From the NCBI RefSeq assembly GCF_020667835.1, contig NZ_JAFMPR010000003.1, positions 248,001-312,000 of the forward strand: DNA of 64,000 nt, given 5' to 3'. Made by a program: the position numbers and the translations under genes. Below the pieces are notes generated by a model. That model had not been told where the DNA came from. It made no database searches and saw only the letters and a program-made list of their open reading frames with translations. Shown here one piece after another: positions 33,738-55,453 of this stretch; positions within the stretch are counted from its first letter, which is position 1, and each line of letters opens with the position of its first letter. Source of the DNA: Roseibaca sp. Y0-43 (GTDB taxonomy: Bacteria > Pseudomonadota > Alphaproteobacteria > Rhodobacterales > Rhodobacteraceae).

Positions 33738-33773
33738 GGGCCGCCCGGATGCCCAGCGCATGGCGGGCGGCCC
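33738..33773 (-). promoter_or_regulatory. Intercistronic stem-loop after the binding-protein gene
   Basis: GGGCCGCCCG (33738-33747) and CGGGCGGCCC (33764-33773) are perfectly complementary, with an inner ATGC/GCAT pairing. It lies between the binding-protein stop and the SDR start and has no T-run on the operon strand. It fits a stabilising or processing hairpin that raises binding-protein mRNA over downstream genes. Confidence 0.5.
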
Positions 33774-33800
33774 TGTCGTGTCGGATCGGACAATGCCCGA

Positions 33801-34787: not shown

Positions 34788-34886
34788 CGTGCGTGTCCTC
34801 CCTTGGATATGGCACATTTCATCTGGTCGCCTTCGCAGTTGAAACCGCTGCCGAAGGCGGGCAGATTCTGGTAAAGGGTTGTCCGG

Positions 34887-35879: not shown

Positions 35880-35911
35880 GCCTTGCTGTCCTCTTGCTCG
35901 ATCTGCCCGGC

Positions 35912-37666: not shown

Positions 37667-38614
37667 TTAGTTCGACAGCGTGAACGGGGCGGTATACTGG
37701 TCCACGTTGTCAGGCGTAATCAGCAGGCAGTCGAACAGCTGCTTTTCTTCTGCGACCATCGGCTCGCCATTCTTGATGTAGTAATCCGCCTGGATCACGG
37801 CCTCGCGCGAGAAGACGGCGACCGGTTGCAGGACCGTATACGCCATTTCGCCCGCCTTGATCGCGTCGACCGCGTCGGGGCTGCCGTCGAAACCGCCGAT
37901 GATCGTGCCTTCCAGGCGGCCGGCTTCTTTCAGTGCGGCAATCGCGCCCAGCGCCATTTCGTCATTGCCAGAGATGACGGCGTCGATTTCGGGGTTCGCC
38001 TGCATGATCGACTGCATCCGGTTATAGCCTTGGGTGCGGTCCCAGTTCGCCACTTCCTCGGCGACCTTTTCCAGCCCCGGATACTGGCTGAGCACCGTGT
38101 TGTAGCCGTTAGAGCGGGTGGCCGCGTTGTTGTCCGACGGGTTGCCGAAGAATTCGACATACTTGGCTTCTTCGCCGACAATGCCCTGCCATGTCACGGC
38201 ACCCAGTGCCGCGCCTTGGGCGTTGTTCGACACCAGCTGGGCAATCGCGATCCCGGCTTCGTTGATCTCGGCATTCACAAGGAACACCGGAATGCCCGCC
38301 TCGGTCGCGCGGCGCACGACACCCACGGAGCCATCGGCATTGGCCGGGTCGAGGATGATCGCGGCGGCGCCATTCGTGATTGCCGCGTCGACAAGGTTCG
38401 ATTCGACATTCGTGTCGCCGCGATGGGCCGAGACATTTGCGGTATAGCCCAGCTCTTCGGCGGTCGCGCGGGCGACTTCGCCCTCGGTGAACCAATAGGG
38501 GTTGGCCGGGTCGTTGACGATGATGGAAATCAGCCCTTCGGCCCAGGCCGAGCTGGCCATCAGCGGCATCGAGACCGCAGCCGCGAGCAGCGCGCGTTTG
38601 GTAATCTTGAACAT
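37667..38614 (-). CDS. Sugar/polyol ABC transporter substrate-binding protein, module 2 (EryG-like)
   Basis: The 315-residue product has a signal peptide (ITKRALLAAAVSMPLMASSA, cleavage near AWA-E) and a ribose-type binding fold: LISIIVNDPANPYWFTEGEV, AAIILDPANADGSVG, ISGNDEMALGAIAALKEAG and IIGGFDGSPDAVDAIKAGEM. Its operon is divergent from eryABCD, which argues for erythritol as ligand, like EryG of the rhizobial EryEFG importer. The ligand is inferred. Confidence 0.88.
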   Translation of the reverse strand: MFKITKRALLAAAVSMPLMASSAWAEGLISIIVNDPANPYWFTEGEVARATAEELGYTANVSAHRGDTNVESNLVDAAITNGAAAIILDPANADGSVGVVRRATEAGIPVFLVNAEINEAGIAIAQLVSNNAQGAALGAVTWQGIVGEEAKYVEFFGNPSDNNAATRSNGYNTVLSQYPGLEKVAEEVANWDRTQGYNRMQSIMQANPEIDAVISGNDEMALGAIAALKEAGRLEGTIIGGFDGSPDAVDAIKAGEMAYTVLQPVAVFSREAVIQADYYIKNGEPMVAEEKQLFDCLLITPDNVDQYTAPFTLSN

Positions 38615-38703
38615 GGTTCTTCTCTCCCTTGGTGGTGTGCCGGAAACCGGCGGTTTCGCGCCGGGCCACCTTGGCCCGTGACGCCGCGAAGCTGGATCGG
38701 GGG

Positions 38704-39750
38704 TCAGAGCTTGAAGCCTTTTCCCCCGTATTGGATGGAGTTGAGCATGACGGCGAGCACGATCACCGCGCCGGTGAACACCGTTTGCCAGTAGGACGAT
38801 ACGCCGATGATGACCAAGCCCGCGCCCAGATAGACGATCACGAACGCGCCCAGAAGCGTGCCGCGAATGGTGCCGCGCCCGCCCATCAGCGATGCACCGC
38901 CAACCACAACCGCGGCGATGGCGGTCAGCTCATAGGTCGTGCCCGCCGTCGGCCCGGCAGAGGTCAGCTGCGAGCTGAGCACAAGCCCCGCGATGGCGGC
39001 GCAAATGCCCGACAGCACATAGACCCAGACCTGCACGCTGCGCACCGGAACGCCCGACAATTCGGCGGCGCGTGCATTGCCCCCGGTGGAATAGAGCCAG
39101 CGGCCAAACGGTGCGCGGGTCAGCAGCAGATGCGCGGCAAGCGCCGTGGCGGCCAGCACGAAAATGCTGATTGGCACGCCCCAAAGCCGGTTGAACCCCA
39201 GCCATTCAAAGCCGGTATTGCCAAGGCTCGGGTCGCCCGAAAGGCGGTTGAAGGTCAGCCCGTTGGTCATCAGAAGCGCCGCGCCGCGCGCCATGTACAG
39301 CGTGCCAAGCGTGGCCACGAAGGCGGGCACTTTCAAAAAGGCCACCAGAATACCGTTCACCGCGCCCACGAAAGCCCCCATCGCCAGCGCGCAGACCACC
39401 ACGGCCCAGACCGGCAGATACAGGATCACCCCCAGCGATTGCAGTTCTACCCCCTGCATCAGCCAGCCCGCGAAGACGCCGCAAAGCGCAAGGGTGGATC
39501 CGACCGACAGGTCGATCCCGCCCGACAGGATGACCAGCAGCATCCCGATGGCCAACAGCCCGAAGATCGCCACTTGCGAGGTCATGGTCAGTGCGTTCGA
39601 TGCCGTCAGGTAATTGGGCGACAGGAACGAGAAGATCGCGATGATCGCGATCAGCGCGAAGAAGGCCCGCCCTTCCAGCAGCAGGTGCAGCAGGTTCAGC
39701 CCTTGTTTTGGGGCGGCTTGGGCCGTCGCATCTGTGGTGCGGTCTGACAT
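38704..39750 (-). CDS. ABC transporter permease, module 2 (EryF-like)
   Basis: This 348-residue, ~10-helix permease has LLAIGMLLVILSGGIDLSVG, FLKVPAFVATLGTLYMARGA, GRWLYSTGGNARAAELSGVP and AIAAVVVGGASLMGGRGTIR. GAGGGAC precedes the ATG at 39750; an earlier ATG at 39765 is possible. It works with the ATPase encoded 22 bases upstream and the binding protein 89 bases downstream. Confidence 0.9.
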   Translation of the reverse strand: MSDRTTDATAQAAPKQGLNLLHLLLEGRAFFALIAIIAIFSFLSPNYLTASNALTMTSQVAIFGLLAIGMLLVILSGGIDLSVGSTLALCGVFAGWLMQGVELQSLGVILYLPVWAVVVCALAMGAFVGAVNGILVAFLKVPAFVATLGTLYMARGAALLMTNGLTFNRLSGDPSLGNTGFEWLGFNRLWGVPISIFVLAATALAAHLLLTRAPFGRWLYSTGGNARAAELSGVPVRSVQVWVYVLSGICAAIAGLVLSSQLTSAGPTAGTTYELTAIAAVVVGGASLMGGRGTIRGTLLGAFVIVYLGAGLVIIGVSSYWQTVFTGAVIVLAVMLNSIQYGGKGFKL

Positions 39751-39772
39751 GGTTTCGTCCCTCATGCGTCTG

Positions 39773-41323
39773 TCAGGCAACCAGGCTTTCGCCCGAGGCG
39801 GCCATGATCGCTTCCTTGGTGGCATCGGCGGTGAACTCGGCCGAAATCCGGCCCCGGCGCATGACGATCACACGATGCGCGATGGACAGGCATTCGCCCA
39901 CTTCGGACGTGGTATAGACCACCGCCATTCCCGCGCGCGCGTGGTCGGAAAGGATGCGGAACACCTCTGCCTTGGCGCCGATGTCAATGCCGCGTGACGG
40001 CTCGTCCAGCAGCATGACCGATGGCTTCGTGGCGATCATCTTGCCGATGACGACCTTTTGCTGGTTGCCGCCCGACAGCGACCCGATGGGCGCATCCGGG
40101 CCGTCGGTCTTGACCGTGACCTCCCGAATGGCGCGGTCGATGATCGCACGCTCGTCGGCGCTACGCGTGAACAATCCGCGTGTGAAATTCCCGATAGAGG
40201 CCAGCGACAGGTTGCGGCCCACGGTCATGGTTTGCACCAGCCCGTCGCGCTGCCGGTCCTCTGGCACCAGCACAAGCCCAGCCGCGATCCGCTGTGCAAT
40301 GCTCAGCTCGTCTATGTCGCGGCCATGTAGCAGGATTTGCCCCTCGGCGCGCGGCAAGCGCCCGGCGGCGCATTCCATCAACTCTGTGCGCCCCGCGCCC
40401 ATCAGGCCGTAGATGCAGACGATCTCTCCCGCCTTGACCGACAGGTCTATGCGGTTGACCGCCATGCCACCCGCCGCGCCGGGCACAGAAACGCCGCGCA
40501 ACTCCAGCGCGGGCGTGCCCATCGCGTAGCCGGTGGGCGGCTGGCCAAGGTCGAAATTCTCGCCCACCATGTTTCGCACGATCCATTCCAGGTCGATCTC
40601 GGCGCGCGGGGCATAGGCGGTCATCACACCGTCACGCAGCACGACAGCATGGTCGGTGATCGTCAGCGCTTCTTCCAGGTGGTGCGAGATATAGACGATC
40701 GACACGCCCCGCGCTTTCAGGTCGCGGATGACCTTGAACAGCACCTCGACCTCTGACGCGGATAGCGCCGATGTGGGTTCATCCATAATCAGAATGCGCG
40801 AATTGACCGACAGGGCGCGCGCGATCTCGACGATCTGCTGCTGGCCCAGCCGCAAATCCTCGACCGGGGTCAGCGGGTCGATGTCTTCTTCCAGCTCGCG
40901 CATCAGGGCGCGGGTCTGGCGCTCTTCCTCGGCGTAATCGACACCGCTTTTGCCCATGATCTCGCGGCCCAGAAAGATATTGTCGCGCACGTTCATATTC
41001 GGCGCGAGGCTAAGCTCTTGGTGGATGATCGAGATTCCGTTGCGCTGGGCGTCGACGGTCGACGACAACTCCAAAGGGCGTCCGTCGAGGATCAACTCGC
41101 CGCTGCTGGGGCGCTGCACACCCGACAGGATTTTCATCAGCGTGGATTTGCCTGCGCCGTTTTCGCCGAAGAGTGTTGTCACTTGCCCCCGGTGCACATC
41201 GAAATTCACGCCCTTCAGCGCGCGCACGGCCCCGAAATTCTTGGCGACATTGCGCGCGGCCAGCACCACTTCCGACGCATCGGGGCGGGCAGAGGGGGTT
41301 TCGTCATGCCGGGGCGTGGTCAT
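39773..41323 (-). CDS. ABC transporter ATP-binding protein, module 2 (EryE-like)
   Basis: The 516-residue tandem ATPase has Walker A GENGAGKSTLMKILSG, signature LRLGQQQIVEIARAL and Walker B ILIMDEPTSALSASEVE in domain 1. Domain 2 has GLMGAGRTELMECAAG, LSGGNQQKVVIGKMIA and VMLLDEPSRGIDIGAKAEVF. About 20 extra residues precede the first domain. Its ATG overlaps the DUF2291 stop by four bases, showing that DUF2291 belongs to the transporter operon. Confidence 0.93.
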   Translation of the reverse strand: MTTPRHDETPSARPDASEVVLAARNVAKNFGAVRALKGVNFDVHRGQVTTLFGENGAGKSTLMKILSGVQRPSSGELILDGRPLELSSTVDAQRNGISIIHQELSLAPNMNVRDNIFLGREIMGKSGVDYAEEERQTRALMRELEEDIDPLTPVEDLRLGQQQIVEIARALSVNSRILIMDEPTSALSASEVEVLFKVIRDLKARGVSIVYISHHLEEALTITDHAVVLRDGVMTAYAPRAEIDLEWIVRNMVGENFDLGQPPTGYAMGTPALELRGVSVPGAAGGMAVNRIDLSVKAGEIVCIYGLMGAGRTELMECAAGRLPRAEGQILLHGRDIDELSIAQRIAAGLVLVPEDRQRDGLVQTMTVGRNLSLASIGNFTRGLFTRSADERAIIDRAIREVTVKTDGPDAPIGSLSGGNQQKVVIGKMIATKPSVMLLDEPSRGIDIGAKAEVFRILSDHARAGMAVVYTTSEVGECLSIAHRVIVMRRGRISAEFTADATKEAIMAASGESLVA

Positions 41324-41976
41324 TGCCGCACCTCGAAGGCGACAGGAGTAATCAGCCAATTCTTGGGGTTTATCATGGTGAACGCGCCGGTCAGCGACAC
41401 GGTCGCACCGTTGAGCGCATCGCGATCCAGATCGTTCAGGGTTTCGGCGGACATGGCGCGATTAATGCCCGCGCCCGCATCCTGATATTCGATCTGGTTG
41501 GTGAAATCGCCAAAGGCAATGTCGCCCACCACATCGCGCAGTTCCGTTCCGTTGATGGCCGGGCCGGTCTGCACCCGGATGGTCATGCCGTCGGGCAAGC
41601 CATCGACCGCAACCGGAAAGATCCCCGAGCGCCCTTCGCCCAGAACCCCCGTCACGCTGACCGCAAGCACCGGGAAGGCGCCTGCCATCGTGCCATAGTC
41701 GGCAATCGCGGCGGCGCGATCCTCTGCCAGAGCGTTTGCCATTGTCGCGGCATCGGGGGCGCGGTCCAGAACGAACTCGCGAATGCGCGGAAATTCACGC
41801 TGGCCGAATTGATCGGGGTCGAAAGCCTGCTGGCGCAGATCGTTATCCGACCCGATGCGCACCACGGTGGTGTCCAGCGCCATTGCCCCCAGCAGCAGCA
41901 CCCCGGCTGCGCCCAGCACCAAGCCGCGACGCCCTAGCCGTGCCTTGCGAAACTGCGTTGCGCTGGTCGTTGCCAT
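41320..41976 (-). CDS. DUF2291 periplasmic/lipoprotein-type accessory protein
   Basis: The 218-residue product has one N-terminal membrane anchor (~19-36, GLVLGAAGVLLLGAMALDTT) and a periplasmic domain with FPRIREFVLDRAPDAATMAN and VAVDGLPDGMTIRVQTGPAI. DUF2291 genes are usually tied to ribose-type ABC importers, as here, where this is the first gene of the module-2 operon. The role is unknown; assembly or substrate handling in the periplasm is a guess. GGAGG precedes the ATG. Confidence 0.75.
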   Translation of the reverse strand: MATTSATQFRKARLGRRGLVLGAAGVLLLGAMALDTTVVRIGSDNDLRQQAFDPDQFGQREFPRIREFVLDRAPDAATMANALAEDRAAAIADYGTMAGAFPVLAVSVTGVLGEGRSGIFPVAVDGLPDGMTIRVQTGPAINGTELRDVVGDIAFGDFTNQIEYQDAGAGINRAMSAETLNDLDRDALNGATVSLTGAFTMINPKNWLITPVAFEVRQ

Positions 41977-42217: not shown

Positions 42218-42262
42218 ATGACGGGCCACCACGACACCGCACGGAACTTGTGCCATGGCTGA
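42218..42262 (+). CDS. Possible 14-residue leader peptide overlapping eryA start
   Basis: An ATG after AAGAGGGG opens a 14-codon frame (MTGHHDTARNLCHG) whose stop at 42260-42262 overlaps the first codons of eryA. A 3-codon frame (ATG at 42210) precedes it. eryA itself has only GGAA as a ribosome site, so coupling through this leader is possible. It could equally be chance. Confidence 0.25.
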   Translation: MTGHHDTARNLCHG

Positions 42263-43820
42263 CCCGCAAGACATCATCATCGGGGTTGATGCGGGGACAT
42301 CGGTGCTCAAGGCCGTGGCCTTTACGCTGTCGGGCGCGCAGATCGCCGTGTCTTCGGTGCGCAACAGCTACAAGACCGGGGCCGATGGCCGTGCGACACA
42401 GGACATGACCCGCACATGGGCCGATTGCGCCGCCGCCCTGCGCGGGCTGGCGGACCATGTGCCGAATCTTGCCGCGCGCACCGCCGCGATTGCGCTGACG
42501 GGGCAGGGCGATGGCACATGGCTGGTCGGGGCCGCCAACGCGCCAGTGGGCGACGCGTGGTTGTGGCTGGATGCCCGCGCCGCGCCCACGGTTCGCAAAC
42601 TTGCGCGTGGAGAGGCTGAGCGCGCACGCTTCAGCGCAACGGGAACCGGGCTGAACACCTGTCAGCAGGGCAGCCAGTTGGCCCATATGCAAGCGACCGC
42701 GCCAGAGCTGTTGGCACAGGCAGAGGTCGCGCTGCATTGCAAGGATTGGCTGTATCTGAACCTGACCGGCATTCGCGCCACCGACCCGTCCGAAGCCAGT
42801 TTCACCTTCGGTAATTTCCGCACCCGGCGCTATGACGACACGGTGCTGGACGCGCTTGGACTGACCGCTCGGCGCGCGCTTTTGCCGGACATCGTCGATG
42901 GCACGCAGCTGACGCACCCGCTGACCGAAGCCGCCGCGCAGGCGACGGGGTTGCGCGCGGGCACGCCCGTGTCGCTTGGCTATGTCGACATGGTCATGAC
43001 CGCGCTGGGCGCGGGCGTGCATACCGGCGATGCCGGTGCCGCCTGTTCCACCATCGGGTCCACCGGGGTGCATATGCGCGCCGTCGCCGCGCAGGATGTG
43101 CATCTGAACGCCGAGGGCACGGGCTATGTGATCTGCCTGCCGGTTCCGGGGCTTGTGACACAGGTGCAGACCAATATGGCGGCCACGCTCAATATCGACT
43201 GGGTGTTGGGTTTGGCGCAGGACGTGGTCGCGCAACTGGGTGTGGCGACCGACCATGCCGCGCTGGTCGCCCGCATCGACGACTGGCTGGCGCAAAGCCG
43301 GGCCGGGGCGGTGGTCTATCATCCCTATATCTCTGATGCGGGGGAACGCGGCCCCTTTGTCGATGCCGACGCCCGCGCCAGCCTGATCGGGCTAAGCGCC
43401 GGGCATCGGTATCCCGATCTTGTGCGCGCCGTGATCGAAGGGTTGGCCATGGCCGCGCGGGATTGCTACGCCGCCATGGGGCAGATGCCGCGCGAGTTGC
43501 GCCTGACGGGCGGCGCCGCGCGCTCTGCCGCGCTGCGCGGGGTTCTGGCGGCGGCCCTGAACACGCCCGTGCGGGTCAGCGACCGGGCCGAGGCGGGGGC
43601 TGCGGGTTGTGCGATGATGGCCGCTGTCGCCATCGGGGTCTATCCGGGTATGGACGCCTGCATCGCGGAATGGACGACCCCGCTTCTGGGTGCGCCCGAC
43701 CTGCCCGCCCCCGAACTTGTTGGAACCTATGACGCGCTCTTTGCGTCCTATTGCGCGTCGCGCCAAGCCTTGCAGCCCGTCTGGGCGCAAATGGCCACGG
43801 CGCGCGCAACTGAAAGGTAG
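42255..43820 (+). CDS. eryA: Erythritol kinase (FGGY family)
   Basis: EryA phosphorylates erythritol in the first step of the Brucella/rhizobial erythritol pathway. The 521-residue product has the FGGY layout: N-terminal phosphate loop GVDAGTSVLKAVAFTLSG, substrate region TGQGDGTWLVGAANAPVGDA and WLWLDARAAPTV. The C-terminal domain has LSAGHRYPDLVRAVIEGLAM and RLTGGAARSAALRGVLAAAL. The fit to EryA, including LNTCQQGSQLAHM and CKDWLYLNLTGIRATDPSEA, is specific rather than generic. It opens eryABCD, six bases before eryB. Confidence 0.92.
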   Translation: MADPQDIIIGVDAGTSVLKAVAFTLSGAQIAVSSVRNSYKTGADGRATQDMTRTWADCAAALRGLADHVPNLAARTAAIALTGQGDGTWLVGAANAPVGDAWLWLDARAAPTVRKLARGEAERARFSATGTGLNTCQQGSQLAHMQATAPELLAQAEVALHCKDWLYLNLTGIRATDPSEASFTFGNFRTRRYDDTVLDALGLTARRALLPDIVDGTQLTHPLTEAAAQATGLRAGTPVSLGYVDMVMTALGAGVHTGDAGAACSTIGSTGVHMRAVAAQDVHLNAEGTGYVICLPVPGLVTQVQTNMAATLNIDWVLGLAQDVVAQLGVATDHAALVARIDDWLAQSRAGAVVYHPYISDAGERGPFVDADARASLIGLSAGHRYPDLVRAVIEGLAMAARDCYAAMGQMPRELRLTGGAARSAALRGVLAAALNTPVRVSDRAEAGAAGCAMMAAVAIGVYPGMDACIAEWTTPLLGAPDLPAPELVGTYDALFASYCASRQALQPVWAQMATARATER

Positions 43821-43825
43821 TTGCC

Positions 43826-45334
43826 ATGACATATACACGCGATGTCGATCTGTTCGTGATCGGGGGCGGAATAAACGGGGCCGGAATTGCCCGCGACGCG
43901 GCAGGCCGTGGCCTGAGCGTGGTTCTGTGCGAGAAGGACGATCTGGCCGAAGGCACCTCGTCGCGGTCGGGCAAGCTGGTGCATGGCGGCTTGCGCTACC
44001 TTGAATATTACGAATTCCGGCTGGTGCGCGAGGCACTGATCGAGCGCGAGGTCTTGATGAACGCGGCCCCGCATATCATCTGGCCCATGCGCTTCGTATT
44101 GCCGCACAGCCCCGCCGACCGCCCCGCCTGGTTGGTGCGGTTGGGCCTGTTCCTGTATGACAATCTTGGCGGCCGCAAGAAACTGCCCGGCACCCGCGTT
44201 CTGGACCTGCGCCGCGATCCGGAGGGCGCCGCGATCAAGGACAAATACACCAAGGGGTTTGAATATTCCGACTGTTGGGTCGATGACGCGCGGCTTGTGG
44301 TGCTGAACGCGATCGACGCGGCAGAGCGCGGGGCAGAGGTGTTGACCCGCACCCCCGCCATTGCCGCGCGGCGCGAGAATGGCGCGTGGCTCGTCACCAC
44401 CCGCAACAGCCTGACCGGCGAGACGCGCGAGTATCGCGCGCGGATGATTATCAACGCCGCCGGGCCTTGGGTGACGGATGTGCTGACCCGCGTCGCCGGG
44501 TCGAACAGTGCACGCAATGTCCGCCTTGTGAAAGGCAGCCATATCGTCGTGCCCAAGTTCTGGAAGGGTGAGAATGCCTATCTGGTGCAGAACCATGACA
44601 AGCGGGTCATCTTCATCAACCCCTATGAGCGCGACAAGGCGCTGATCGGCACAACCGACATCCCTTACGAAGGACGCGCCGAGGATGTCGCGGTGGATGA
44701 AAGCGAGATCCAGTATCTGCTGGATGCCGTGAACCTTTACTTCAAGGAAGAACTGACCCGCGCCGATGTGGAAAGCAGCTTCTCGGGCGTGCGGCCCTTG
44801 TTCGACGACGGCAAGGGCAACCCGTCTGCGGTCACGCGCGACTACGTCTTTGACGTGGACGAAACCGGCGGCGCGCCCATGCTGAACATCTTCGGCGGCA
44901 AGATCACCACGTATCGCGAATTGGCAGAGCGCGGGATGCACAAGGTCAAACGCTTCTTCCCCAAGATGGGGGGTGACTGGACCGCGACAGCGCCCATGCC
45001 CGGCGGCGATATGCCCAAGGCGGATTACGAAGCGTTCCGCGGCTGGATGAAGGCCACCTATCCGTGGATGCCGCGCAGCCTGCGGCGGCATTATGGCCGC
45101 CTCTATGGCACCCGTATTGCCATGATCGTGGGCGATGCAACATCTGTCGCGGGGCTGGGGCGGCATTTTGGCGGCGATTTGTACGAGGCAGAGGTCAGCT
45201 ACCTGATGCGGCATGAATGGGCACAGACGCCCGAAGACATCCTTTGGCGGCGCACCAAGCACCGGCTGCATCTGTCCGAGGACGAGCAAGCCGCTTTCGC
45301 CGAATGGCTCACCGCCCATGCAGAGGCCGCCTGA
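43826..45334 (+). CDS. eryB: Erythritol-phosphate dehydrogenase EryB (GlpD-like, FAD)
   Basis: This 502-residue FAD enzyme of the GlpD family oxidises erythritol phosphate to a tetrulose phosphate, feeding electrons to quinones. FAD motif: LFVIGGGINGAGIARDAAGR; family segments KLVHGGLRYLEYYEFRLVRE, AAGPWVTDVL, GTTDIPYEG and NIFGGKITTYRELAERGMHK. Context between eryA and eryC, with a one-base overlap to eryC, distinguishes it from glycerol-3-phosphate dehydrogenase. It probably works at the membrane face. Confidence 0.92.
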   Translation: MTYTRDVDLFVIGGGINGAGIARDAAGRGLSVVLCEKDDLAEGTSSRSGKLVHGGLRYLEYYEFRLVREALIEREVLMNAAPHIIWPMRFVLPHSPADRPAWLVRLGLFLYDNLGGRKKLPGTRVLDLRRDPEGAAIKDKYTKGFEYSDCWVDDARLVVLNAIDAAERGAEVLTRTPAIAARRENGAWLVTTRNSLTGETREYRARMIINAAGPWVTDVLTRVAGSNSARNVRLVKGSHIVVPKFWKGENAYLVQNHDKRVIFINPYERDKALIGTTDIPYEGRAEDVAVDESEIQYLLDAVNLYFKEELTRADVESSFSGVRPLFDDGKGNPSAVTRDYVFDVDETGGAPMLNIFGGKITTYRELAERGMHKVKRFFPKMGGDWTATAPMPGGDMPKADYEAFRGWMKATYPWMPRSLRRHYGRLYGTRIAMIVGDATSVAGLGRHFGGDLYEAEVSYLMRHEWAQTPEDILWRRTKHRLHLSEDEQAAFAEWLTAHAEAA

Positions 45335-46266
45335 TGCCGCTGACACTGTCGCTGAACACCAACCCGCTGGTCAACCGTTTTGCTGAACCCGACGACCTGA
45401 TCGACGCTATCACCCGCGACATCGGCATTCGCGACATCCAGCTGACGCATGAGTTCATCAACCCAAGCTGGCCCGCGCCGGTCATTCGCCGCCTGACGCG
45501 CGACATGGGCCGCGCGCTGGCACGCAGCGGCGGGCGGGTCACGTCGGGCATGACCGGACCCTATGGGCGGCTGAACCATTTCGGCCACCCCGATGCGGAT
45601 GTGCGGCGCTATTATATCGACTGGTTCAAGACCTTTGCCGATATCATCGGCGAACTGGGCGGCACGTCCGTGGGCACGCAATTCGCCATTCTGACCTATC
45701 GCGATTACGACGACCCGGCCCGGCGCGAGGCGTTGACCCAGACAGCGATCGACGCCTGGGCAGAGGTGGCGGAACACGCCAAGGCCGCCGGTCTGGAATA
45801 TGTGTTCTGGGAACCGATGAGCATAGGCCGTGAATTCGGCGAAACCATCGCGGCCAGCATGGCGCTGCAAGATCGGCTGACGGCGGCAGATATGGCCGTG
45901 CCGATGTGGATGATGGCCGATATCGACCATGGCGATGTGACCTCGCCCAACCCCGATGACACGGACCCCTATGCCTGGGCACGGGCCGTGCCGCGCGTGT
46001 CGCCTATCATCCATATCAAGCAATCCATGATGGACAAATCCGGCCACCGGCCCTTCACCGCGGACTACAACGCCAAGGGCGCGATCCAGCCGGCCCCGCT
46101 GCTGGCGGCTTTTGCCGAAGGCGGTGCGCGCGACAACGAAATTTGCCTGGAGCTGTCCTTCAAGGAACGCGAACCGAATGACCGGCAGGTCATCGCGCAG
46201 ATTGCCGAGAGCGTTGCCTTCTGGGCCCCGCATATCGACACGGGCGCGGCGGACCTGACGGTATGA
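45334..46266 (+). CDS. eryC: EryC, tetrulose-phosphate isomerase/racemase (xylose-isomerase-like TIM barrel)
   Basis: EryC is one of the isomerases that convert the tetrulose phosphate made by EryB towards D-erythrose 4-phosphate. The 310-residue product is an AP-endonuclease-2/xylose-isomerase-like TIM barrel with LSLNTNPLVNRFAEPDDLID, IRDIQLTHEFINPSWPAP, LEYVFWEPMSIGREFGETI (metal Glu), MWMMADIDHGD and PIIHIKQSMMDKSGH. It was once annotated as a dehydrogenase. Its ATG shares one base with the eryB stop. Confidence 0.9.
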   Translation: MPLTLSLNTNPLVNRFAEPDDLIDAITRDIGIRDIQLTHEFINPSWPAPVIRRLTRDMGRALARSGGRVTSGMTGPYGRLNHFGHPDADVRRYYIDWFKTFADIIGELGGTSVGTQFAILTYRDYDDPARREALTQTAIDAWAEVAEHAKAAGLEYVFWEPMSIGREFGETIAASMALQDRLTAADMAVPMWMMADIDHGDVTSPNPDDTDPYAWARAVPRVSPIIHIKQSMMDKSGHRPFTADYNAKGAIQPAPLLAAFAEGGARDNEICLELSFKEREPNDRQVIAQIAESVAFWAPHIDTGAADLTV

Positions 46267-46339
46267 GCTGCGACGCCGCCGCGCTTGCCAAGGCGGTCGG
46301 GCTTGGGGCATTGCCAAAGGGGTTGTTTGCAAAAGGGTC

Positions 46340-47302
46340 ATGCCGATGAAGGATTGGAGCGCCAGCGAGATCGAGCATTCGCTCGCCATTCGGGCGGCAT
46401 GGCTGCATTACGTTGGCGGATTGCGGCAGGCCGAGGTTGCGAAGCGGCTGGGCGTGCCCTCGGTCAAGGCGCACAGGCTGATCCAGAAGGCCGTGGCCGA
46501 AGGGGCGGTCAAGGTCAGCATCGAAGGCGACATGGTCGAATGCGTGGAGCTGGAAGCGGCGCTGTGCGAACGCTTCGGGCTTGCAACCTGCGAAGTCGCC
46601 CCCTGCCTGGAAGAAGACGGCCTGCCGCTGCGCGCGCTGGGCGCGGCCGGCGCGTCGTGGTTGCGCCGCTGCCTGGAGCAGGGCGAAGACACCACCATCG
46701 GCATCAGCCATGGTCGCACCCTGACCGCCGCCGTGCGCAGCCTGTCGCATCTGTCCTTGCCGGACCTGCGCTTCGTGTCGCTGCTGGGCGGCCTGACCCG
46801 CAATTTCGCCGCCAACCCGCATGATGTGATGCACCTGCTGGCCGAAAAGACCGGCGCGCAGGCCTATGTCATGCCGGTCCCCTTCTTTGCCAACTCGGTC
46901 GAGGATCGCGCCGTTTTGCTGGCGCAGCGCGGGATCGCCGATGTGCTGACCATGGCGGAAAACGCCTCTCTCAAGCTAGTCGGCATTGGTACCGTGTCAT
47001 TCGAGGCGCAACTGGTCGTCTCTGGCCTGATCCAGAAATCCGAGATCGAGGCGATCTCTGCCGATGGCGGCTTGGGCGAAATGCTGGGTCACTTCTTCGA
47101 CGCGTCGGGCCATATCATCGACACGGCCCTGACGAAACGCACCATCGCCGCCTCGCTCGGGTCCGGGCCGGGGGCGGGCGGGCGTATCGTGGCGCTGGCG
47201 GGCGGCCCTCACAAGGTGGCCGCCATCAGCGCGGTGCTCAACAGTGGCAGGCTGCACGGCCTGATTACCGACGAAAACACCGCGCGCGCGTTGCTGGCCT
47301 AG
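46340..47302 (+). CDS. eryD: EryD, SorC-family regulator of erythritol genes
   Basis: The 320-residue protein has a helix-turn-helix (YVGGLRQAEVAKRLGVPSVK) and a SorC sugar-phosphate-sensing domain (IGISHGRTLTAAVRSLSHL, LRFVSLLGGLTRNFAANPHD, LVGIGTVSFEAQLVVSGLI, RIVALAGGPHKVAAISAVL). In Brucella EryD represses the ery operon and is relieved by erythritol. Its likely site is the phased repeat set at 42105-42161. AAAGGG precedes the ATG, and the end overlaps the convergent aldolase gene by four bases. Confidence 0.9.
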   Translation: MPMKDWSASEIEHSLAIRAAWLHYVGGLRQAEVAKRLGVPSVKAHRLIQKAVAEGAVKVSIEGDMVECVELEAALCERFGLATCEVAPCLEEDGLPLRALGAAGASWLRRCLEQGEDTTIGISHGRTLTAAVRSLSHLSLPDLRFVSLLGGLTRNFAANPHDVMHLLAEKTGAQAYVMPVPFFANSVEDRAVLLAQRGIADVLTMAENASLKLVGIGTVSFEAQLVVSGLIQKSEIEAISADGGLGEMLGHFFDASGHIIDTALTKRTIAASLGSGPGAGGRIVALAGGPHKVAAISAVLNSGRLHGLITDENTARALLA

Positions 47303-48333: not shown

Positions 48334-48335
48334 TG

Positions 48336-49458: not shown

Positions 49459-50238
49459 ATGAAGCGCGACGAAAGACAGCAAGAGATCATGGACCTGCTG
49501 GTCGCACAGGGAGAGGTCGAGCTGGACGCCTTGGCCGAGCGCTTCGCCGTGTCGCGCATGACCATTCACCGCGATCTGGACGAGCTTGAAAGCGCGGGCG
49601 TGCTGCGCAAGATCCGGGGCGGGGCCACCATTCGCAGCGGCACCCAGTTCGAAAGCGATTTCCGCATTCGCGAACGTCAGGACGCGCCGGCAAAAGCTGC
49701 CATGGCCGCCGCCGCGCTGCGTTTGGTAGAGCCGGGGATGAGCGTTCTGGTCAATGACGGGTCCATGGCCGCCACGCTGGCCGATGCGCTTGTTGCACGT
49801 CGCCCGCTGACCATCATCACCAACAATGCAGCCGTGCTGGAGCGGTTGCGCGGCGAAGCCGGGATCACCCTGATCGCGCTGGGCGGCGTGTATTCGGCCA
49901 AGTTCAACGCCTATCTGGGCAAGATCACCGAAGATACTCTTGCCCAGCTCCATGCCGACATCGCCTTCATCTCGACCCCCGCCCTTGCCGGGCTGGAGGT
50001 GTTTCACATGGATGACGCGGTCGTGCGGGCCAAGCGCGCCATGATGGATGCAAGCGCAATGCGTTGCCTACTGGTCAACCATACCCGCTTCGGCCATGCC
50101 GCCCTTCACCGGCTGGCGGCACTGGCAGAGTTCGACCACATCATCACCGATACCGCGCCCGATGCGCAGGCGCGCGCCGCGCTTGCGCGCGCGGGCCTGA
50201 CCCTGACCCTTGCAGACAGATTGGACCCCGACACATGA
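49459..50238 (+). CDS. eryR: DeoR-family regulator EryR
   Basis: This 259-residue repressor has the DeoR helix-turn-helix (RQQEIMDLLVAQGEVELDAL, FAVSRMTIHRDLDELES) and the sugar-phosphate-binding domain (SVLVNDGSMAATLADALVAR, NNAAVLERLRGE, ALGGVYSAKFNAYLGKI). In rhizobia a DeoR regulator, EryR, precedes tpiB and rpiB in exactly this order. The stop overlaps the eryH start (ATGA), so expression is coupled. It may also control the divergent fbp-fba operon. Confidence 0.85.
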   Translation: MKRDERQQEIMDLLVAQGEVELDALAERFAVSRMTIHRDLDELESAGVLRKIRGGATIRSGTQFESDFRIRERQDAPAKAAMAAAALRLVEPGMSVLVNDGSMAATLADALVARRPLTIITNNAAVLERLRGEAGITLIALGGVYSAKFNAYLGKITEDTLAQLHADIAFISTPALAGLEVFHMDDAVVRAKRAMMDASAMRCLLVNHTRFGHAALHRLAALAEFDHIITDTAPDAQARAALARAGLTLTLADRLDPDT

Positions 50239-51002
50239 GCGACGCAGGATTCTGGATCGGCACAAGCTGGAAAATGAACAAGACCCTGCCGCAGGCGATG
50301 GACTTCGCCACGCGGCTGGCCAATGCCGATGCCGCGCGCGACGCGCGCGTGCAGCGCTTCGTGATCCCGCCCTTCACGGCGGTGCGGCAGGTGAAAGCGG
50401 CTTTGGCTGATACGTCTGTCAAGGTTGGCGCGCAGAACATGCACTGGGCCGATGCCGGTGCCTGGACAGGAGAGGTCTCTGCCCCGATGCTGGTTGATTG
50501 CGGGCTGGACATGGTCGAGTTGGGCCATTCCGAACGCCGCGCGCATTTCGGCGAAACCGATGAGACCGTGGGCCTGAAGGTGGAAAGCGCCGTGCGCCAT
50601 GGGCTGACCCCGCTGATCTGCCTGGGCGAGACATTGGCCGAACGCGACGCAGGCCGCGCCGCCGAGGTGCTGGCACGCCAGACCCGCTTGGCGCTGGCCA
50701 AACTGTCCGATGCCCAGAAAGCCGCGCCGGTTCTGTTTGCCTACGAACCCGTCTGGGCCATCGGCGAGGGCGGTATATCCGCCACATCCGATTATGCCGA
50801 TGCTCGCCAGGCTGAGATCATAGCCGTCGCAGAAAGCGTCTTGGGGCGGCGTGTGCCCTGCCTCTATGGCGGTTCCGTCAACCCCGAGAATTGTGCCGAA
50901 CTGATCGCCTGCCCGCATGTGGACGGCTTGTTCATCGGGCGTTCTGCTTGGGATGTGGACGGCTATCTGGACATTCTTGGCCGCGTTTCGGCGGCCATCT
51001 GA
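50235..51002 (+). CDS. eryH: EryH (TpiB), TPI-like tetrulose-phosphate isomerase
   Basis: The 255-residue TIM barrel has triosephosphate isomerase motifs: [20 protein letters not shown] (catalytic Lys), [15 protein letters not shown] (catalytic His), [12 protein letters not shown] (catalytic Glu) and [15 protein letters not shown]. Its neighbours mark it as the erythritol-pathway paralogue EryH, which acts on a tetrulose phosphate, rather than the glycolytic enzyme. Followed by eryI after 22 bases with a strong AAGGAG site. Confidence 0.88.
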
Positions 51003-51024: not shown

Positions 51025-51480
51025 ATGAAACTTGCCATCGCAGGCGACAGCGCCGGAGAAGGTCTGGCCAAAGTTCTCGTCGACTACCTGAAAGACAAAC
51101 ACGAGGTTTCAGACCTGTCGCGCACCGCTGACGGGCCGGATGATTTTTATGCCAACCTGTCCGACCGCGTGTGCAGCGCGGTGTTGCGCGGGGAATATGA
51201 CCGCGCGATCCTTGTTTGCGGCACGGGCATTGGCGTGGCGCTGTCGGCCAACAAGGTGCCCGGCATTCGGGCCGCGCAATGCCATGACACATATTCGGCA
51301 GAACGCGCTGCGCTGTCGAACAACGCGCAGGTCATCACCATGGGCGCGCGCGTGATCGGCACGGAACTGGCCAAGGCGATTGCCGATGCCTACTTGGCCC
51401 AGAGTTTCGACCCCGAGGGCCGCTCTGCCGGGAATGTGCAGGCCATTGACCGGGTCGACGCGAAATATCGCAGCGCCTGA
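51025..51480 (+). CDS. eryI: EryI (RpiB), RpiB-like isomerase giving D-erythrose 4-phosphate
   Basis: This 151-residue RpiB/LacAB-type isomerase has [40 protein letters not shown] (catalytic Cys) and [20 protein letters not shown]. The last isomerisation of the erythritol pathway, to D-erythrose 4-phosphate, is assigned to EryI. It ends the eryR-eryH-eryI operon, 19 bases from the converging dehydrogenase gene. Confidence 0.9.
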
Positions 51481-51499: not shown

Positions 51500-53146
51500 T
51501 CACACGCGGTTGCGGTGGCGGGTCCGCAACAGCGCGCGCGTGTCGTCCAGCTCTTGGCTGCGGCGCGCGCTGTCCCAGCCCAGATGTGTCGCCGCCAGAT
51601 CGGCGAGGGCTTGCAACCCCGCTTCCGTGATCTGGCCGGTAATCGCCAGCGAAGTGCGACGCAGCACCATGTCTTGCAGGTGCACGACATGTTCGTGGGT
51701 CAGGATATGTCGTATCTCTTGCACCGAATGATCGGGCGCGTCTGGCAGGGGCGTGGGGGCTGACCCTTCGGCCCGCAAGATTTCGGCGGCCACGCTGCCA
51801 TAGCGCCCCAGCAGCAAGCCCGCGCGCAGGGGCGTGCAGCCGGTGGCCTCTGCCATTTGGGCAGCCCATGCCGCGCGGTCGTCGGGATAGTCGCGCCCAC
51901 CGCCGATAGGCAGGGTGTCTGTCCCGGTCCGGCGCGGCCTGCCCAATCGCGCAAGGACCGTATCGGCCACCTCTTCGGCGAAGCCGCGAAAGGTGGTCCA
52001 TTTGCCCCCGACCATGGACAGGATCGCAAAGGGGCGGGTGTCATCCGCAGGCAATTCCGGCGTGGAATGATCGCGGCTGATAAGCCCCGCCGCCGTGCCC
52101 TCCGACACGGGCAGGGGCCGGATGCCGCTATAGACATGCACGATCTGATCTTCGCCGAAGCTTAGGGCCGGAAACAGTCCGCGCAGTGCCGTCAGGAAAT
52201 AGCCGACCTCATCTTCGTCGCAGGCAACGGTATCGGGGTTGTCGGCCCGAATGTCGGTAGAGCCGACAAGCACCCGTCCCAGATGCGGAAAGGCAAGGCA
52301 AATGCGCCCGTCATCGGCCTCGAAATAGACCATCTTGCCGCCAAGCGCGCGCAAAAGGTCGGGGTGGTCCAGCAGGATATGCGACCCCTTTGTGCCGCCG
52401 ATGAAGCGCGAGGGCGCGCCCAGTCTGCCATTGACCAGGTCGATCCAAGGCCCGGCGGCGTTCACCACAAGGCGTGGCGCCAGCCACTGCTCTGCGCCAT
52501 CCGGCCCGCGCAGCCCGACACGCCCCGCATCCGCGCCCAGAAGCGCCGTGTGGTTCATCGCGGTCGCCTGTGGGCCTGCGCGCAGCCCGTCCTGCACCAG
52601 TTCCAGCACCAGCCGTTCAGGATAGGTGACATGCGCGTCGTAATACTGGCCGGCGGCGCGAATGGCGGGGGTCAGCGCCGGGATCTCGCGCAGCGCGCGC
52701 CGCCTGTGCCACATCTGGTGGCGGGGCATGACGCGGGCGCGGGCACCGTAGAAATCATACATCATCAGCCCCGCCCAGATCAGCGCAGCGCCCCGGCTGC
52801 GCGGGGCAGTGGTGGACCCCATCAATGTGCGCAGCGCGGCCCCTATTCCCTTGGCCCTGGACATGATCGGAATGACGGTCGGCAGCGGGCTGACCAGATG
52901 CGGCGCGTTACGCAAAAGCAGGTTCCGCTCGTAGGTCGATTGCGCGACAAGGCGTAATTCGCCGGTTTCGAGGTATTTCAACCCGCCATGGATCAACCGC
53001 GACGGTGCGGCCGAGCTGCCGCCGCCATAATCGCCCTTGTCGGCCAGCACGACCGACACCCCCTGAAGCGCCAGATCCCGGAACAGGCCCGCCCCGTTCA
53101 CCCCGGCCCCGAGGATCAGAACATCGCAACGCTCGGGCAGGGTCAT
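51500..53146 (-). CDS. FAD-dependent polyol-phosphate/glycerol-3-phosphate dehydrogenase (GlpD family), second module
   Basis: The 548-residue product has the FAD motif LILGAGVNGAGLFRDLALQG, SRLIHGGLKYLETGELRLVA, NAAGPWIDLVNG, VGSTDIRADNPDT, VYSGIRPLPVSEG and SMVGGKWTTFRGFAEEVAD. A long C-terminal domain has the GlpD-type ending (LTHEHVVHLQDMVLRRTSLA). It diverges strongly from EryB. Its ATG overlaps the DeoR stop, and a polyol-type FGGY kinase heads the operon, so the likely substrate is the kinase product rather than simple glycerol 3-phosphate. Confidence 0.82.
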   Translation of the reverse strand: MTLPERCDVLILGAGVNGAGLFRDLALQGVSVVLADKGDYGGGSSAAPSRLIHGGLKYLETGELRLVAQSTYERNLLLRNAPHLVSPLPTVIPIMSRAKGIGAALRTLMGSTTAPRSRGAALIWAGLMMYDFYGARARVMPRHQMWHRRRALREIPALTPAIRAAGQYYDAHVTYPERLVLELVQDGLRAGPQATAMNHTALLGADAGRVGLRGPDGAEQWLAPRLVVNAAGPWIDLVNGRLGAPSRFIGGTKGSHILLDHPDLLRALGGKMVYFEADDGRICLAFPHLGRVLVGSTDIRADNPDTVACDEDEVGYFLTALRGLFPALSFGEDQIVHVYSGIRPLPVSEGTAAGLISRDHSTPELPADDTRPFAILSMVGGKWTTFRGFAEEVADTVLARLGRPRRTGTDTLPIGGGRDYPDDRAAWAAQMAEATGCTPLRAGLLLGRYGSVAAEILRAEGSAPTPLPDAPDHSVQEIRHILTHEHVVHLQDMVLRRTSLAITGQITEAGLQALADLAATHLGWDSARRSQELDDTRALLRTRHRNRV

Positions 53147-53907
53147 GACAGGTCCACAAGGTTCAGGGGCACGCCTGCATCGCGCAATGCGCGTGCCTGC
53201 GACGCGGGCAGCCCGGTATCGGTATAGACGGCGTCGAACGCATCCAGCCGGGCCAGCTTGTTCAGTGCGATCCGCCCGAATTTGCCGGACCCCAGCACCA
53301 GCACCCGCCGTTCTGCCGCGGCCAGCATGGCCGCCTTGGCCCGTGTGACCTGCGCGTCTTGCACAAGCGCCACGCCATCGGCCACGCCAGAGGCCGAGAC
53401 CAGCGCCAGATTGACCCGGATACGCCCCAGCGCCGCCTCGCAATCCGGGCCGATAAAGGCGTTATAGGTCGGGGCATAGTTGCCGCCGATGGCGATCAGC
53501 GCAATCTCGTCGCGATGTGCCAGTTCTTGCATCAGCCCAAGGCTGTTGGTCGCGACCGTCAGGGGGGCGGCATCGGCGATCATGGGGGCCAGCGCCGCCA
53601 CGGTGGTCGAATCGTCCAGCAGGACTGCTTGGCCCGGCGTGACTTCGGCCATCGCCGCATGGGCCAGTGCGGCCTTGGTCGCCATGTCGGCCTGACTGCG
53701 ATAGGCATACAGGCTTTCATAGACGCTAGAGGGTTGCGCCGTGACCGCGCCGTGCAATTTGCGCAAGACGCCTTGCTGCGCCAGTTTGTCGATGTCGCGA
53801 TGGATGGTCATGCGCGACACGCCGAAATGTTCGGCCAAGGCGTCTAGCCGGGCTTCGCCCTGCATGCGCACATATTCGGCAATCGCGGTCAGCCGATCGG
53901 GGGTCAT
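53143..53907 (-). CDS. DeoR-family transcriptional regulator, second polyol module
   Basis: The 254-residue protein has a DeoR helix-turn-helix (ARLDALAEHFGVSRMTIHRD, LAQQGVLRKLHGAVTAQPSS) and the ligand domain (GQAVLLDDSTTVAALAPMIA, IAIGGNYAPTYNAFIGPDCE, VLGSGKFGRIALNKLARLDA). It lies between kinase and dehydrogenase genes with 4-base overlaps on both sides, so the three are one tightly coupled operon. It probably senses the phosphorylated polyol or ketose; a palindromic site stands upstream of the operon. Confidence 0.88.
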   Translation of the reverse strand: MTPDRLTAIAEYVRMQGEARLDALAEHFGVSRMTIHRDIDKLAQQGVLRKLHGAVTAQPSSVYESLYAYRSQADMATKAALAHAAMAEVTPGQAVLLDDSTTVAALAPMIADAAPLTVATNSLGLMQELAHRDEIALIAIGGNYAPTYNAFIGPDCEAALGRIRVNLALVSASGVADGVALVQDAQVTRAKAAMLAAAERRVLVLGSGKFGRIALNKLARLDAFDAVYTDTGLPASQARALRDAGVPLNLVDLS

Positions 53908-55412
53908 GGGCGTTCCTCTTCTTCCAGCCGTGCCCAGACCGGGGCCAGGGCATCGGCCATGTCGCAATGCAGCCGGTAGCGCCGGGCAAGGTGAGGGGCG
54001 CGTTCGGGGTCGGGTTGGTAGTGGCGGCGCAGGGTGTTCAGGTCTCTGGGGTCCGCGGTCGGGCTGTCGAACAGGCCAACACCCGCGCCCGCGCACAGGG
54101 CCGCGCCCCATGCGGCGGGTTCTTCGGTATCGGTCACGATCAGGGCTTGGCCCAGCGCATCCGCAAAGAGCTGCGCATAGGACGGGTTGCGAGAGATCCC
54201 GCCGGTCAGGTGCAGCGTGCCCGTCGTGAACCTGTCGCGCAGCGCATCGACATGGACCCGGTGGTTGAAGGCGATGCCTTCCATCAAGGCGCGCAGCATA
54301 TCGCCCCGGTCGCTCCAGCCGCGCAGCCCCAGAAACCCGGCACTTGGCCCCGGCCCGTAAGGAGAACCGAAAAGATAGGGGTGGAACATCACCCCCGAAC
54401 GGCGGTCGCGCGCGGCGTCCAGCTCTTGTGCCAGCTTGGCGTGCAGCCCGTCGCCCAGCCCGGCGCGTTCCTGCGCGCAAAGCCGGTCCATGAACCAGTC
54501 GTAATTCGTGGCCGAGGCGGGCGAGATTGCCATGTTGTTCCATTCGCCCTTGCGCAACCCGTTGCGGCAAAACCAGTGCCGGTCGCAGCGCGGGGCATCG
54601 GACACGGTTTCGTTGATGGAATAGGTGCCCGCCACCATCGTCGCATGACCCAGACCGTAGCCGCCCACGCCTAGTGCCGAAGCCGTCACGTCATGAAGCC
54701 CCGCCACCACGGGCACACCGGCAGGCAGGCCGCAGACAAGCGCGGCCTGCTCTGTCAGCTGTCCGACGATCTGGTCGGGCAGGTCAATCGCAGGCAGCGC
54801 CGGGCGCAAGGCCGCAAGGCCGTAGGCATCCAGAATGTCGGGCGCGTAGTCTTGCGTCTGCACATCGGTAAAGGACGTGCTGGCCTCTGTCAGGTCGGTG
54901 CCGATGGTGCCGGTCAGGCAAAAGCGCAGCCAGTCCTTGCAGGCCAGCACATGCCCGATCGCGGCGAAGCGTTCGGGCTGGTGCCGGGCGATCCACGCCA
55001 GAAGCGCCGAAGGGGCAGAGGCGTGCGGCGTCTGTCCGCTGCGTTGCAGGGCCTTGCCAAAAAGCTCCGTGCGCCCCCACTCGGCCACAAGATCGCCGGC
55101 GCGGCTGTCCAGCGACAGGATGCCGGGGCCAAGCGGCCGCCCGTCACGGTCCAGCAGGTACAGCCCGTCGCCATGTGCCGTGGCCCCTATGGCGGCGACC
55201 TGTGCGGATCGTGGCAGTTGCGCGGCAATCTCTGCCACCGCCTGGCAGGTGGCGCTCCAGAGGGCCGTCATGTCGCGTTCGACGAATTTCGGCTGTGGTA
55301 TGAGTTGCGGAACCCTGCGCCGGGCCACGGCCAAGGGGGTTCCGCTCGTGTCGAACAAGACCGCCTTGGTGACGGTCAGCCCGACATCTATGCCGACCAA
55401 CAGAGGGGTCAT
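53904..55412 (-). CDS. FGGY-family carbohydrate/polyol kinase, second module
   Basis: This 502-residue FGGY kinase has VGIDVGLTVTKAVLFDTSGT, AIGATAHGDGLYLLDRDGRP, SLDSRAG, GLHDVTASALGVGG, MFHPYLFGSPYGPGPSAGFL and LHLTGGISRNPSYAQLFADA. General likeness is to LyxK/xylulokinase-like members rather than EryA. With the following GlpD-like enzyme it repeats the kinase-then-dehydrogenase logic of EryA/EryB, so a polyol such as another tetritol or pentitol is plausible. The substrate cannot be read from sequence. Confidence 0.82.
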   Translation of the reverse strand: MTPLLVGIDVGLTVTKAVLFDTSGTPLAVARRRVPQLIPQPKFVERDMTALWSATCQAVAEIAAQLPRSAQVAAIGATAHGDGLYLLDRDGRPLGPGILSLDSRAGDLVAEWGRTELFGKALQRSGQTPHASAPSALLAWIARHQPERFAAIGHVLACKDWLRFCLTGTIGTDLTEASTSFTDVQTQDYAPDILDAYGLAALRPALPAIDLPDQIVGQLTEQAALVCGLPAGVPVVAGLHDVTASALGVGGYGLGHATMVAGTYSINETVSDAPRCDRHWFCRNGLRKGEWNNMAISPASATNYDWFMDRLCAQERAGLGDGLHAKLAQELDAARDRRSGVMFHPYLFGSPYGPGPSAGFLGLRGWSDRGDMLRALMEGIAFNHRVHVDALRDRFTTGTLHLTGGISRNPSYAQLFADALGQALIVTDTEEPAAWGAALCAGAGVGLFDSPTADPRDLNTLRRHYQPDPERAPHLARRYRLHCDMADALAPVWARLEEEERP

Positions 55413-55441: not shown

Positions 55442-55453
55442 GTAACATGTTAC
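55442..55453. promoter_or_regulatory. Palindrome GTAACATGTTAC upstream of the FGGY kinase operon
   Basis: A perfect 12-bp palindrome lies 30 bases upstream of the kinase start, beside AT-rich sequence that could hold the promoter. It shares the ATGTTA word found twice upstream of eryR, the other DeoR-type gene, which supports a DeoR operator role. Confidence 0.5.

Follow-up and report, generated by a model that had tools for sequence, protein, structure and literature searches.

The 64,000-nucleotide stretch analysed here (the window; contig NZ_JAFMPR010000003.1 of Roseibaca sp. Y0-43, positions 248,001 to 312,000) carries, next to genes of erythritol (ery) catabolism, a three-gene operon encoding an FGGY polyol kinase, a DeoR-family regulator and a GlpD-like polyol-phosphate dehydrogenase dependent on flavin adenine dinucleotide (FAD). 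The genes were given the labels kin2, deoR2 and gpd2, coined in this analysis (Table 1). The original prediction had placed a kinase, a DeoR regulator and an FAD dehydrogenase at this site, neighbouring genes overlapping by four bases; the open reading frames, all on the minus strand, and the Pfam domains agree with this, and both overlaps are present (kin2/deoR2 at 53904-53907, deoR2/gpd2 at 53143-53146). Domain scores were well above the Pfam cut-offs for kin2 (FGGY_N, 184.2 bits against 28.8; FGGY_C, 78 against 27), deoR2 (DeoRC, 128 against 31.8; HTH_DeoR, 57 against 21) and gpd2 (DAO, 143.4 against 27.9; DAO_C, 74 against 31.4). The operon is convergent with eryR-tpiB-rpiB, 19 bases separating the end of rpiB (51480) from that of gpd2 (51500).

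The kinase and the dehydrogenase had also been predicted to be far in sequence from EryA and EryB, and this proved correct: kin2 shares 29.6% identity with the EryA of the window and gpd2 29.7% with its EryB, whereas EryB and the GlpD of the same genome are 53.6% identical. Kin2 and EryA fell into separate clades of a tree that carries a long-branch warning, and these clades differ at 47 of the 96 columns conserved to at least 95% in both (the first 125 residues dropped out of this comparison because some rows are truncated). Kin2 belongs to the FGGY carbohydrate kinase family by both of its domains and by Asp241, which we take to be the catalytic aspartate and which is present in 80 of 80 aligned rows. 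The H-D-V around this residue is invariant in the 80 orthologs, as are HGDG and SLD in all 78 rows with letters there; the counterparts in EryA are V-D-M, QGDG and WLD, respectively. G-D-G and CKDW are common to kin2 and EryA and absent from the GlpK and XylB of the genome and from 14 sister-clade kinases, which read HGNG (ten), FGNG (two) or GAG (two) and in no case HGDG or CKDW. The G-D shared by kin2 and EryA is compatible with a tetritol substrate, but is no proof of it. Kin2 remained below the curated NCBIfam cut-offs for XylB (TIGR01312, 212 bits against 380.25) and GlpK (TIGR01311, 118.3 against 590.35). At the positions of R83, E84 and W103 of E. coli GlpK, presumably its glycerol-pocket residues, kin2 has G, D and S, whereas the GlpK of the genome has R, E and W. 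The predicted structure of kin2 (mean predicted local distance difference test score 77.8) adopts the FGGY fold and aligns with glycerol kinases at Z of about 38-41 over some 470 residues; gluconate and xylulose kinases tie with these, and the model has no power to separate substrates.

With its DAO and DAO_C domains, gpd2 falls within the GlpD-type FAD dehydrogenase superfamily, but it lacks high identity to EryB and scores below the cut-off for glycerol-3-phosphate dehydrogenase (NF008899, 240.9 bits against 360). Its residues Y58, R343 and K382 match Y55, R317 and K354 of E. coli GlpD, and K57 replaces R54; we assume functional roles for these four GlpD residues. The gpd2 and EryB clades differ at 77 of the 165 columns conserved in both, and at those 77 columns the GlpD residue is that of EryB in 54 cases, that of gpd2 in 3 and a different one in 20.

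In a sample of 198 genomes of the family, searched for kinase, dehydrogenase and EryC at E 1e-60, the kinase was matched in 19 genomes, namely that of the window, six with orthologs at 56-66% identity and a further twelve at 33-41%. The dehydrogenase was matched in 24, namely that of the window, seven at 57-66% (one more than for the kinase, owing to G050) and sixteen with more remote matches. The pair lies within the erythritol locus in all six family relatives that have both orthologs. A scan of species genomes gave 329 relatives, of which the best 80 were retained for locus counts with flanks of 10 kb; they belong to Natronohydrobacter, Pseudogemmobacter, Paracoccus, Tabrizicola, Gemmobacter, Mesorhizobium, Labrys, Rhizobium, Shinella, Aureimonas, Brucella/Ochrobactrum and other genera. 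Kin2 and gpd2 genes occur together in all 80, in 79 according to the gene caller and in locus L155 according to tblastn and coordinates; there the gene caller missed the kinase, which tblastn recovers as an uninterrupted match separated by 84 bases from that of the dehydrogenase. The two genes are adjacent in 54 of these loci and have a DeoR gene between them in 25, as in the window. A local oddity was ruled out, since the pair is linked in 80/80 relatives and orthologous pairs recur across many genera. In a class-wide sample of 385 genomes, kinase matches at E 1e-100 numbered nine, with the window's own genome as the sole ortholog-level match (916 bits) and the other eight at about 407-446 bits. 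Within the genus of locus L138 (Brucella tritici), a near full-length kinase was found in 31 of 35 genomes at E below 1e-250, one genome having it in two pieces and three lacking it at that threshold; many of these matches read through one stop, probably the gene's own end. The copy in two pieces, on contig C2 of genome G598 (about 194233-195554), looks broken, its match being split between two frames.

The linkage of the pair to erythritol genes is also steady, many soil and water bacteria having it at this type of site. Among the best 80 relatives, 75 have erythritol genes no more than 10 kb from the pair, with EryA and EryB in 71 each, EryC in 67 and the transporter in 73, and in 70 the gene for the transporter's binding protein is found in the same orientation as the kinase, at most two genes upstream of it. 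In the window the pair is separated from the transporter and converges on rpiB, a minority arrangement that also occurs in locus L083. For the five loci without nearby ery genes and for L123, EryC was found at another place in the genome in every case (6/6). In the family sample EryC was found in 11 of 198 genomes, and all seven kin2 carriers are among these 11 (Fisher p 1.6e-10, with relatedness ignored).

In the window itself, the operon adjoins a complete set of erythritol genes, including those for TpiB, which we take to be the counterpart of LerI/EryH, and for RpiB; these two isomerases are predicted to provide downstream steps shared with the kin2/gpd2 route. Genes for GlpK (C54; 678.9 bits, cut-off 590.35), GlpD (C44; 763.4, cut-off 360) and the xylulokinase XylB (C22, also above its curated cut-off) are sited elsewhere in the genome. 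Glycerol and xylulose are therefore unlikely substrates of kin2/gpd2. A kinase for glycerol or for a ketose, the outcome that the original prediction had held against itself, is disfavoured on the same grounds, as kin2 and gpd2 are far below those cut-offs. A 199-aa protein without an NCBIfam match (41320-41919, minus strand) heads the erythritol transporter operon, and a relative of it was found in 73 of the 80 loci, a number equal to that of the transporter ATPase.

Table 1. Features of the window discussed in the text; the last row refers to locus L135.
Feature	Position	Strand	Basis or remark
kin2, FGGY polyol kinase, 502 aa, first gene of operon	53904..55412	-	ORF + Pfam
deoR2, DeoR-family regulator, 254 aa	53143..53907	-	ORF + Pfam
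gpd2, GlpD-like FAD polyol-phosphate dehydrogenase, 548 aa	51500..53146	-	ORF + Pfam
Perfect 12-base palindrome GTAACATGTTAC, candidate operator	55442..55453	.	29 bp upstream of kin2 start
RpiB / DerI-type D-erythrulose-4-phosphate isomerase	51025..51480	+	NF051858, 256.8 bits, cut-off 240
TpiB, predicted LerI/EryH-type L-erythrulose-1-phosphate isomerase	50274..51002	+	triose-phosphate isomerase model NF000722, 418.7 bits, cut-off 293
EryR-type DeoR regulator	49459..50238	+	
Class II aldolase + GlpX-like gene	47299-49334		read from sequence, no profile scan
Class II aldolase	47299-48333		from sequence
EryA, EryB, EryC, EryD: erythritol pathway and regulator	42255..47302	+	
Erythritol-type ATP-binding cassette (ABC) transporter operon: binding protein, permease, ATPase, 199-aa protein	37667..41919	-	
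Second tetritol-type module: ABC transporter, GolD/DthD-family short-chain dehydrogenase/reductase (SDR), DhaK, two DhaL, SorC-DhaK fusion	28526..37390	-	
ApnL, adjoining the pair	13398-15224	-	locus L135

The regulator of the operon is 40-41% identical to the EryR-type DeoR protein of the window. Two DeoR lineages were found in the best-80 loci: 25 genes located between kinase and dehydrogenase, whose products are 50-71% identical to deoR2, and 63 genes elsewhere, mostly between transporter and kinase, with 36-44% identity. In Brucella abortus, the transporter cluster has as its fourth gene BAB2_0378, which encodes an erythritol-induced DeoR regulator (PMC3522698); its position matches that of the upstream DeoR gene of the relatives. 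The palindrome GTAACATGTTAC upstream of kin2 occurs once in the window (the gapped form being expected at a mean of 0.01 by shuffling) and is a possible DeoR operator. In L083, a TGTTACA/TGTAACA inverted pair lies just upstream of the kinase. A promoter scan returned no promoters, and a terminator scan two terminators, a count not above those of shuffled sequences.

The transporter and an EryC-type locus are shared steadily, which speaks for a substrate that yields an erythrulose phosphate once it has been phosphorylated and oxidised to the keto form. Gene families, gene order, the distance from EryA/EryB and the linkage to erythritol genes were observed directly; the substrate, each reaction and the regulation of kin2/deoR2/gpd2 are inferred. 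The substrate is probably some polyol that feeds the ery isomerases, and by a slight balance of the evidence a tetritol other than erythritol; L-threitol in particular is a tentative choice, held with rather less than even confidence. Taken as a whole, the operon may admit a non-erythritol tetritol, L-threitol being the likeliest, by a route that starts with the kinase; this reading leads the others while falling somewhat short of even odds. The original prediction of a tetritol or pentitol pair that draws on shared ery genes is thus upheld in part: neighbourhood and co-occurrence give good support to a separate polyol pair leaning on ery genes, and the choice between the two classes of substrate, which is inferred, now falls on tetritols.

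In the proposed route, a tetritol would be imported via the erythritol-type ABC transporter, and kin2 would use ATP to phosphorylate a terminal hydroxyl, yielding L-threitol 4-phosphate. GlpD-type enzymes oxidise the carbon next to the phosphate, and gpd2 would do the same with FAD; the product would be L-erythrulose 1-phosphate, and the electrons would go to the quinone pool. TpiB, as a LerI/EryH-type enzyme, would then form D-erythrulose 4-phosphate, and RpiB, of the DerI type, D-erythrose 4-phosphate, which would enter the pentose phosphate pathway, while deoR2 would keep the operon repressed until an intermediate appears. The choice of L-threitol follows from stereochemistry worked out for the four tetritol 4-phosphates: L-erythritol 4-phosphate and L-threitol 4-phosphate have the geometry of sn-glycerol 3-phosphate at the oxidised carbon, and this geometry is reversed in D-erythritol 4-phosphate and D-threitol 4-phosphate. 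Oxidation of L-threitol 4-phosphate would give L-erythrulose 1-phosphate, entering below EryC. L-threitol thus needs two new enzymes and no EryC, whereas D-threitol needs the opposite geometry as well as EryC. LerI followed by DerI was used in E. coli to turn L-erythrulose 1-phosphate into D-erythrose 4-phosphate, and EryC is described as the D-erythrulose-1-phosphate 3-epimerase, both according to PMC10733421.

Several observations weigh against the L-threitol route. The choice assumes that gpd2 has kept the preference of GlpD, an assumption made uncertain by the divergence of the enzyme; since many gpd2 positions differ from both EryB and GlpD, its stereochemical preference need not equal that of GlpD. 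EryC was found in 13/13 searched pair-carrying genomes, although a route through L-erythrulose 1-phosphate needs no EryC; its presence fits a D-threitol route at least as well, but EryC is needed for erythritol anyway. The sharing of TpiB and RpiB is deduced from the type of locus, because the 10-kb flanks show TpiB in 5 of the 80 loci and RpiB in 4, many flanks stopping near EryC. Four of the 11 EryC genomes lack kin2, and two of these, G039 and G042, carry the transporter together with EryA-D. G050, whose gpd2 relative (57-58%) has other kinds of neighbours, without kin2 or EryC at E 1e-60, is a case against strict coupling of gpd2 to ery genes. The G-D-G motif extends to a more distant kinase, from L078, which reads QGDG, and the sister-clade kinases, in operons with a DhnA-type aldolase, probably act on other substrates. 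The class-wide sample, too, yielded no second clear ortholog. Finally, the DthD/DhaK-type operon of the window could itself serve L-threitol. In the sole sampled congener (G179), kin2, gpd2 and EryC were all unmatched at the thresholds used; this and the four EryC genomes without kin2 make a neat vertical inheritance of the pair doubtful.

Next to L-threitol stands D-threitol, for which kin2 would act as a kinase and gpd2 as a D-threitol 4-phosphate dehydrogenase, the product being D-erythrulose 1-phosphate, as with EryB, to be processed by EryC, TpiB and RpiB. The steady company of EryC and the same transporter linkage speak for this alternative, but the geometry at the oxidised carbon would be opposite to that of the GlpD and EryB substrates, and a D-threitol route may already be provided in the window by the DthD-family SDR with DhaK-type kinases. 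We consider D-threitol unlikely.

The module concerned, which may cover D-threitol, lies directly beyond the erythritol-type transporter. Its SDR scores 373.9 bits in NF005309 (cut-off 286), in a family whose name GolD also takes in galactitol dehydrogenases, and DhaK/DhaL models match as well. The best PDB sequence match of its binding protein is 4rsm, MSMEG_3599 of M. smegmatis, whose ligand we take to be D-threitol. In L083 this type of operon directly precedes the kinase operon in the same orientation, in L054 gpd2 is followed at once by a DhaK-family gene, and in L120 and L153 the pair has nearby genes related to the DhaK half of the fusion protein, but most of the 80 loci have no such module in their flanks. 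The fusion itself (28526-30607, minus strand) joins in one frame a SorC-type regulator (residues about 30-330) and a DhaK1-type kinase domain (361-691) and has an 87% relative in L083; a kinase fused to a regulator that senses its substrate would be uncommon. That the window holds a tetritol island of three modules, with EryA/EryB/EryC for erythritol, the kinase-first kin2/gpd2 for L-threitol and a dehydrogenase-first DthD/DhaK operon for D-threitol, all meeting at two isomerases, is a conceivable but doubtful extension.

For a pentitol (ribitol, xylitol or an arabitol), the route would run from the pentitol 1-phosphate to a ketose 1-phosphate, which an aldolase would then cleave. The ery locus of Sinorhizobium meliloti also serves adonitol and L-arabitol, and Mesorhizobium ciceri combines the EryEFG transporter with pentitol genes (PMC3599248). 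The window has a class II aldolase gene, a relative of which adjoins gpd2 in 11 of the 80 loci, a further point against L-threitol, and the sister operons join a GlpD-like enzyme, an FGGY kinase and a DhnA aldolase. Against this, no such aldolase gene was seen within 10 kb in 68 of the 80 loci, and according to PMC3599248 the EryEFG-type transporter is found, M. ciceri apart, in loci without the pentitol genes. A pentitol appears as improbable as D-threitol.

Slightly less probable still is a second erythritol enzyme set, for instance a pair of high affinity or a pair that phosphorylates erythritol at its opposite end and so bypasses EryC. The transporter and the locus are indeed common with the erythritol genes, but EryA and EryB are each present in 71 of the 80 same loci, the kinase clades differ at nearly half of their conserved columns, as given above, and a route from the other end needs a geometry opposite to that of GlpD. 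Moreover, eryA, B, C, H and I are enough to enable growth of E. coli on erythritol, according to PMC10190533, so that kin2/gpd2 appear dispensable for erythritol.

A branched substrate, apiitol or 2-C-methyl-erythritol, was also weighed. The best PDB sequence matches of the erythritol-type binding protein are 5ibq, whose ligand is presumably apiose, and 4ry0 (RHE_PF00037 of R. etli), and the D-apionate lactonase ApnL (L135; 1044.8 bits, cut-off 750) or a relative is encoded near gpd2 in 7 of the 80 loci. Nevertheless, the loci concerned (L112, L131, L135, L137, L141, L142 and L162) are all from Rhizobiales, with none within 10 kb in Rhodobacterales loci, and a branched ketose phosphate would be unsuited to the TpiB/RpiB steps; such a substrate is very improbable. 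Some ApnL-bearing loci have a second ery-like transporter. A glycerol kinase/glycerol-3-phosphate dehydrogenase operon, suggested by the same protein families and a GlpR-like regulator family, was rejected as most improbable of all, as the GlpK and GlpD encoded elsewhere pass the cut-offs that kin2 and gpd2 miss and the glycerol-pocket residues of GlpK are replaced in kin2.

Erythritol loci have been much studied owing to Brucella and the rhizobia, and the pair behind the transporter is conserved in place. The table in section 9 of PMC3599248 has no column for such a pair, the word kinase occurring once in that paper, and a kin2/gpd2-type pair is not among the ten ery genes cloned from Ochrobactrum as listed in PMC10190533. 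No description of the pair or of a threitol kinase was found in the titles, abstract openings and passages covered by searches of open-access literature, an older mention being possible. What appears new is a kinase with a GlpD-type dehydrogenase, of probably different specificity, in an erythritol locus. Under the three-module reading, kin2/gpd2 would be, to our knowledge, the first kinase-first threitol route, one that erythritol loci of both Rhizobiales and Rhodobacterales have carried without its being noticed. Once assigned, the pair would show what else such bacteria may eat via the same transporter. Synthetic biology would gain a kinase-first module for L-threitol (or D-threitol) that supplies erythrose 4-phosphate, and the mislabelling of the genes as glycerol or xylulose kinase and as glycerol-3-phosphate dehydrogenase could be avoided.

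Four known or related systems invite comparison. The nearest relatives outside the clade are sister operons of an FGGY kinase and a GlpD-like enzyme (for example L059, L062 and L063; the families are named from L062, other loci being assigned by clustering), with kinases at 33-41% and dehydrogenases at 39-48% identity in the family sample. They differ in that no ery isomerase genes were seen in 20 kb, genes for an aldolase, a GMC oxidoreductase and an aldo-keto reductase being found instead. Eight Rhodobacteraceae loci (L059, L060, L061, L062, L063, L066, L067 and L070) hold the sister kinase and the sister GlpD-like enzyme, to which they add varying DhnA-type aldolase, YdjG-like aldo-keto reductase, Zn-alcohol dehydrogenase and GMC oxidoreductase genes. 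The GlpK/GlpD glycerol pathway resembles kin2/gpd2 in fold, family and reaction logic, but its curated cut-offs, for GlpK and glycerol-3-phosphate dehydrogenase, are missed by both proteins. EryA/EryB of Brucella and Rhizobium share with the pair an FGGY kinase and a GlpD-type FAD dehydrogenase acting in series, the locus and the predicted downstream isomerases, whereas identities of about 30% each, a separate kinase clade, other conserved residues and a DeoR regulator of their own set kin2/gpd2 apart. Finally, the EltD-LerK-LerI-DerI route for L-threitol and erythritol in E. coli, derived from work on Mycolicibacterium smegmatis (PMC10733421), has in common with the predicted kin2/gpd2 route L-erythrulose 1-phosphate, D-erythrulose 4-phosphate and the isomerases; there, however, the dehydrogenase comes first and the kinase second, whereas with kin2/gpd2 the kinase would act first and the FAD enzyme would follow.

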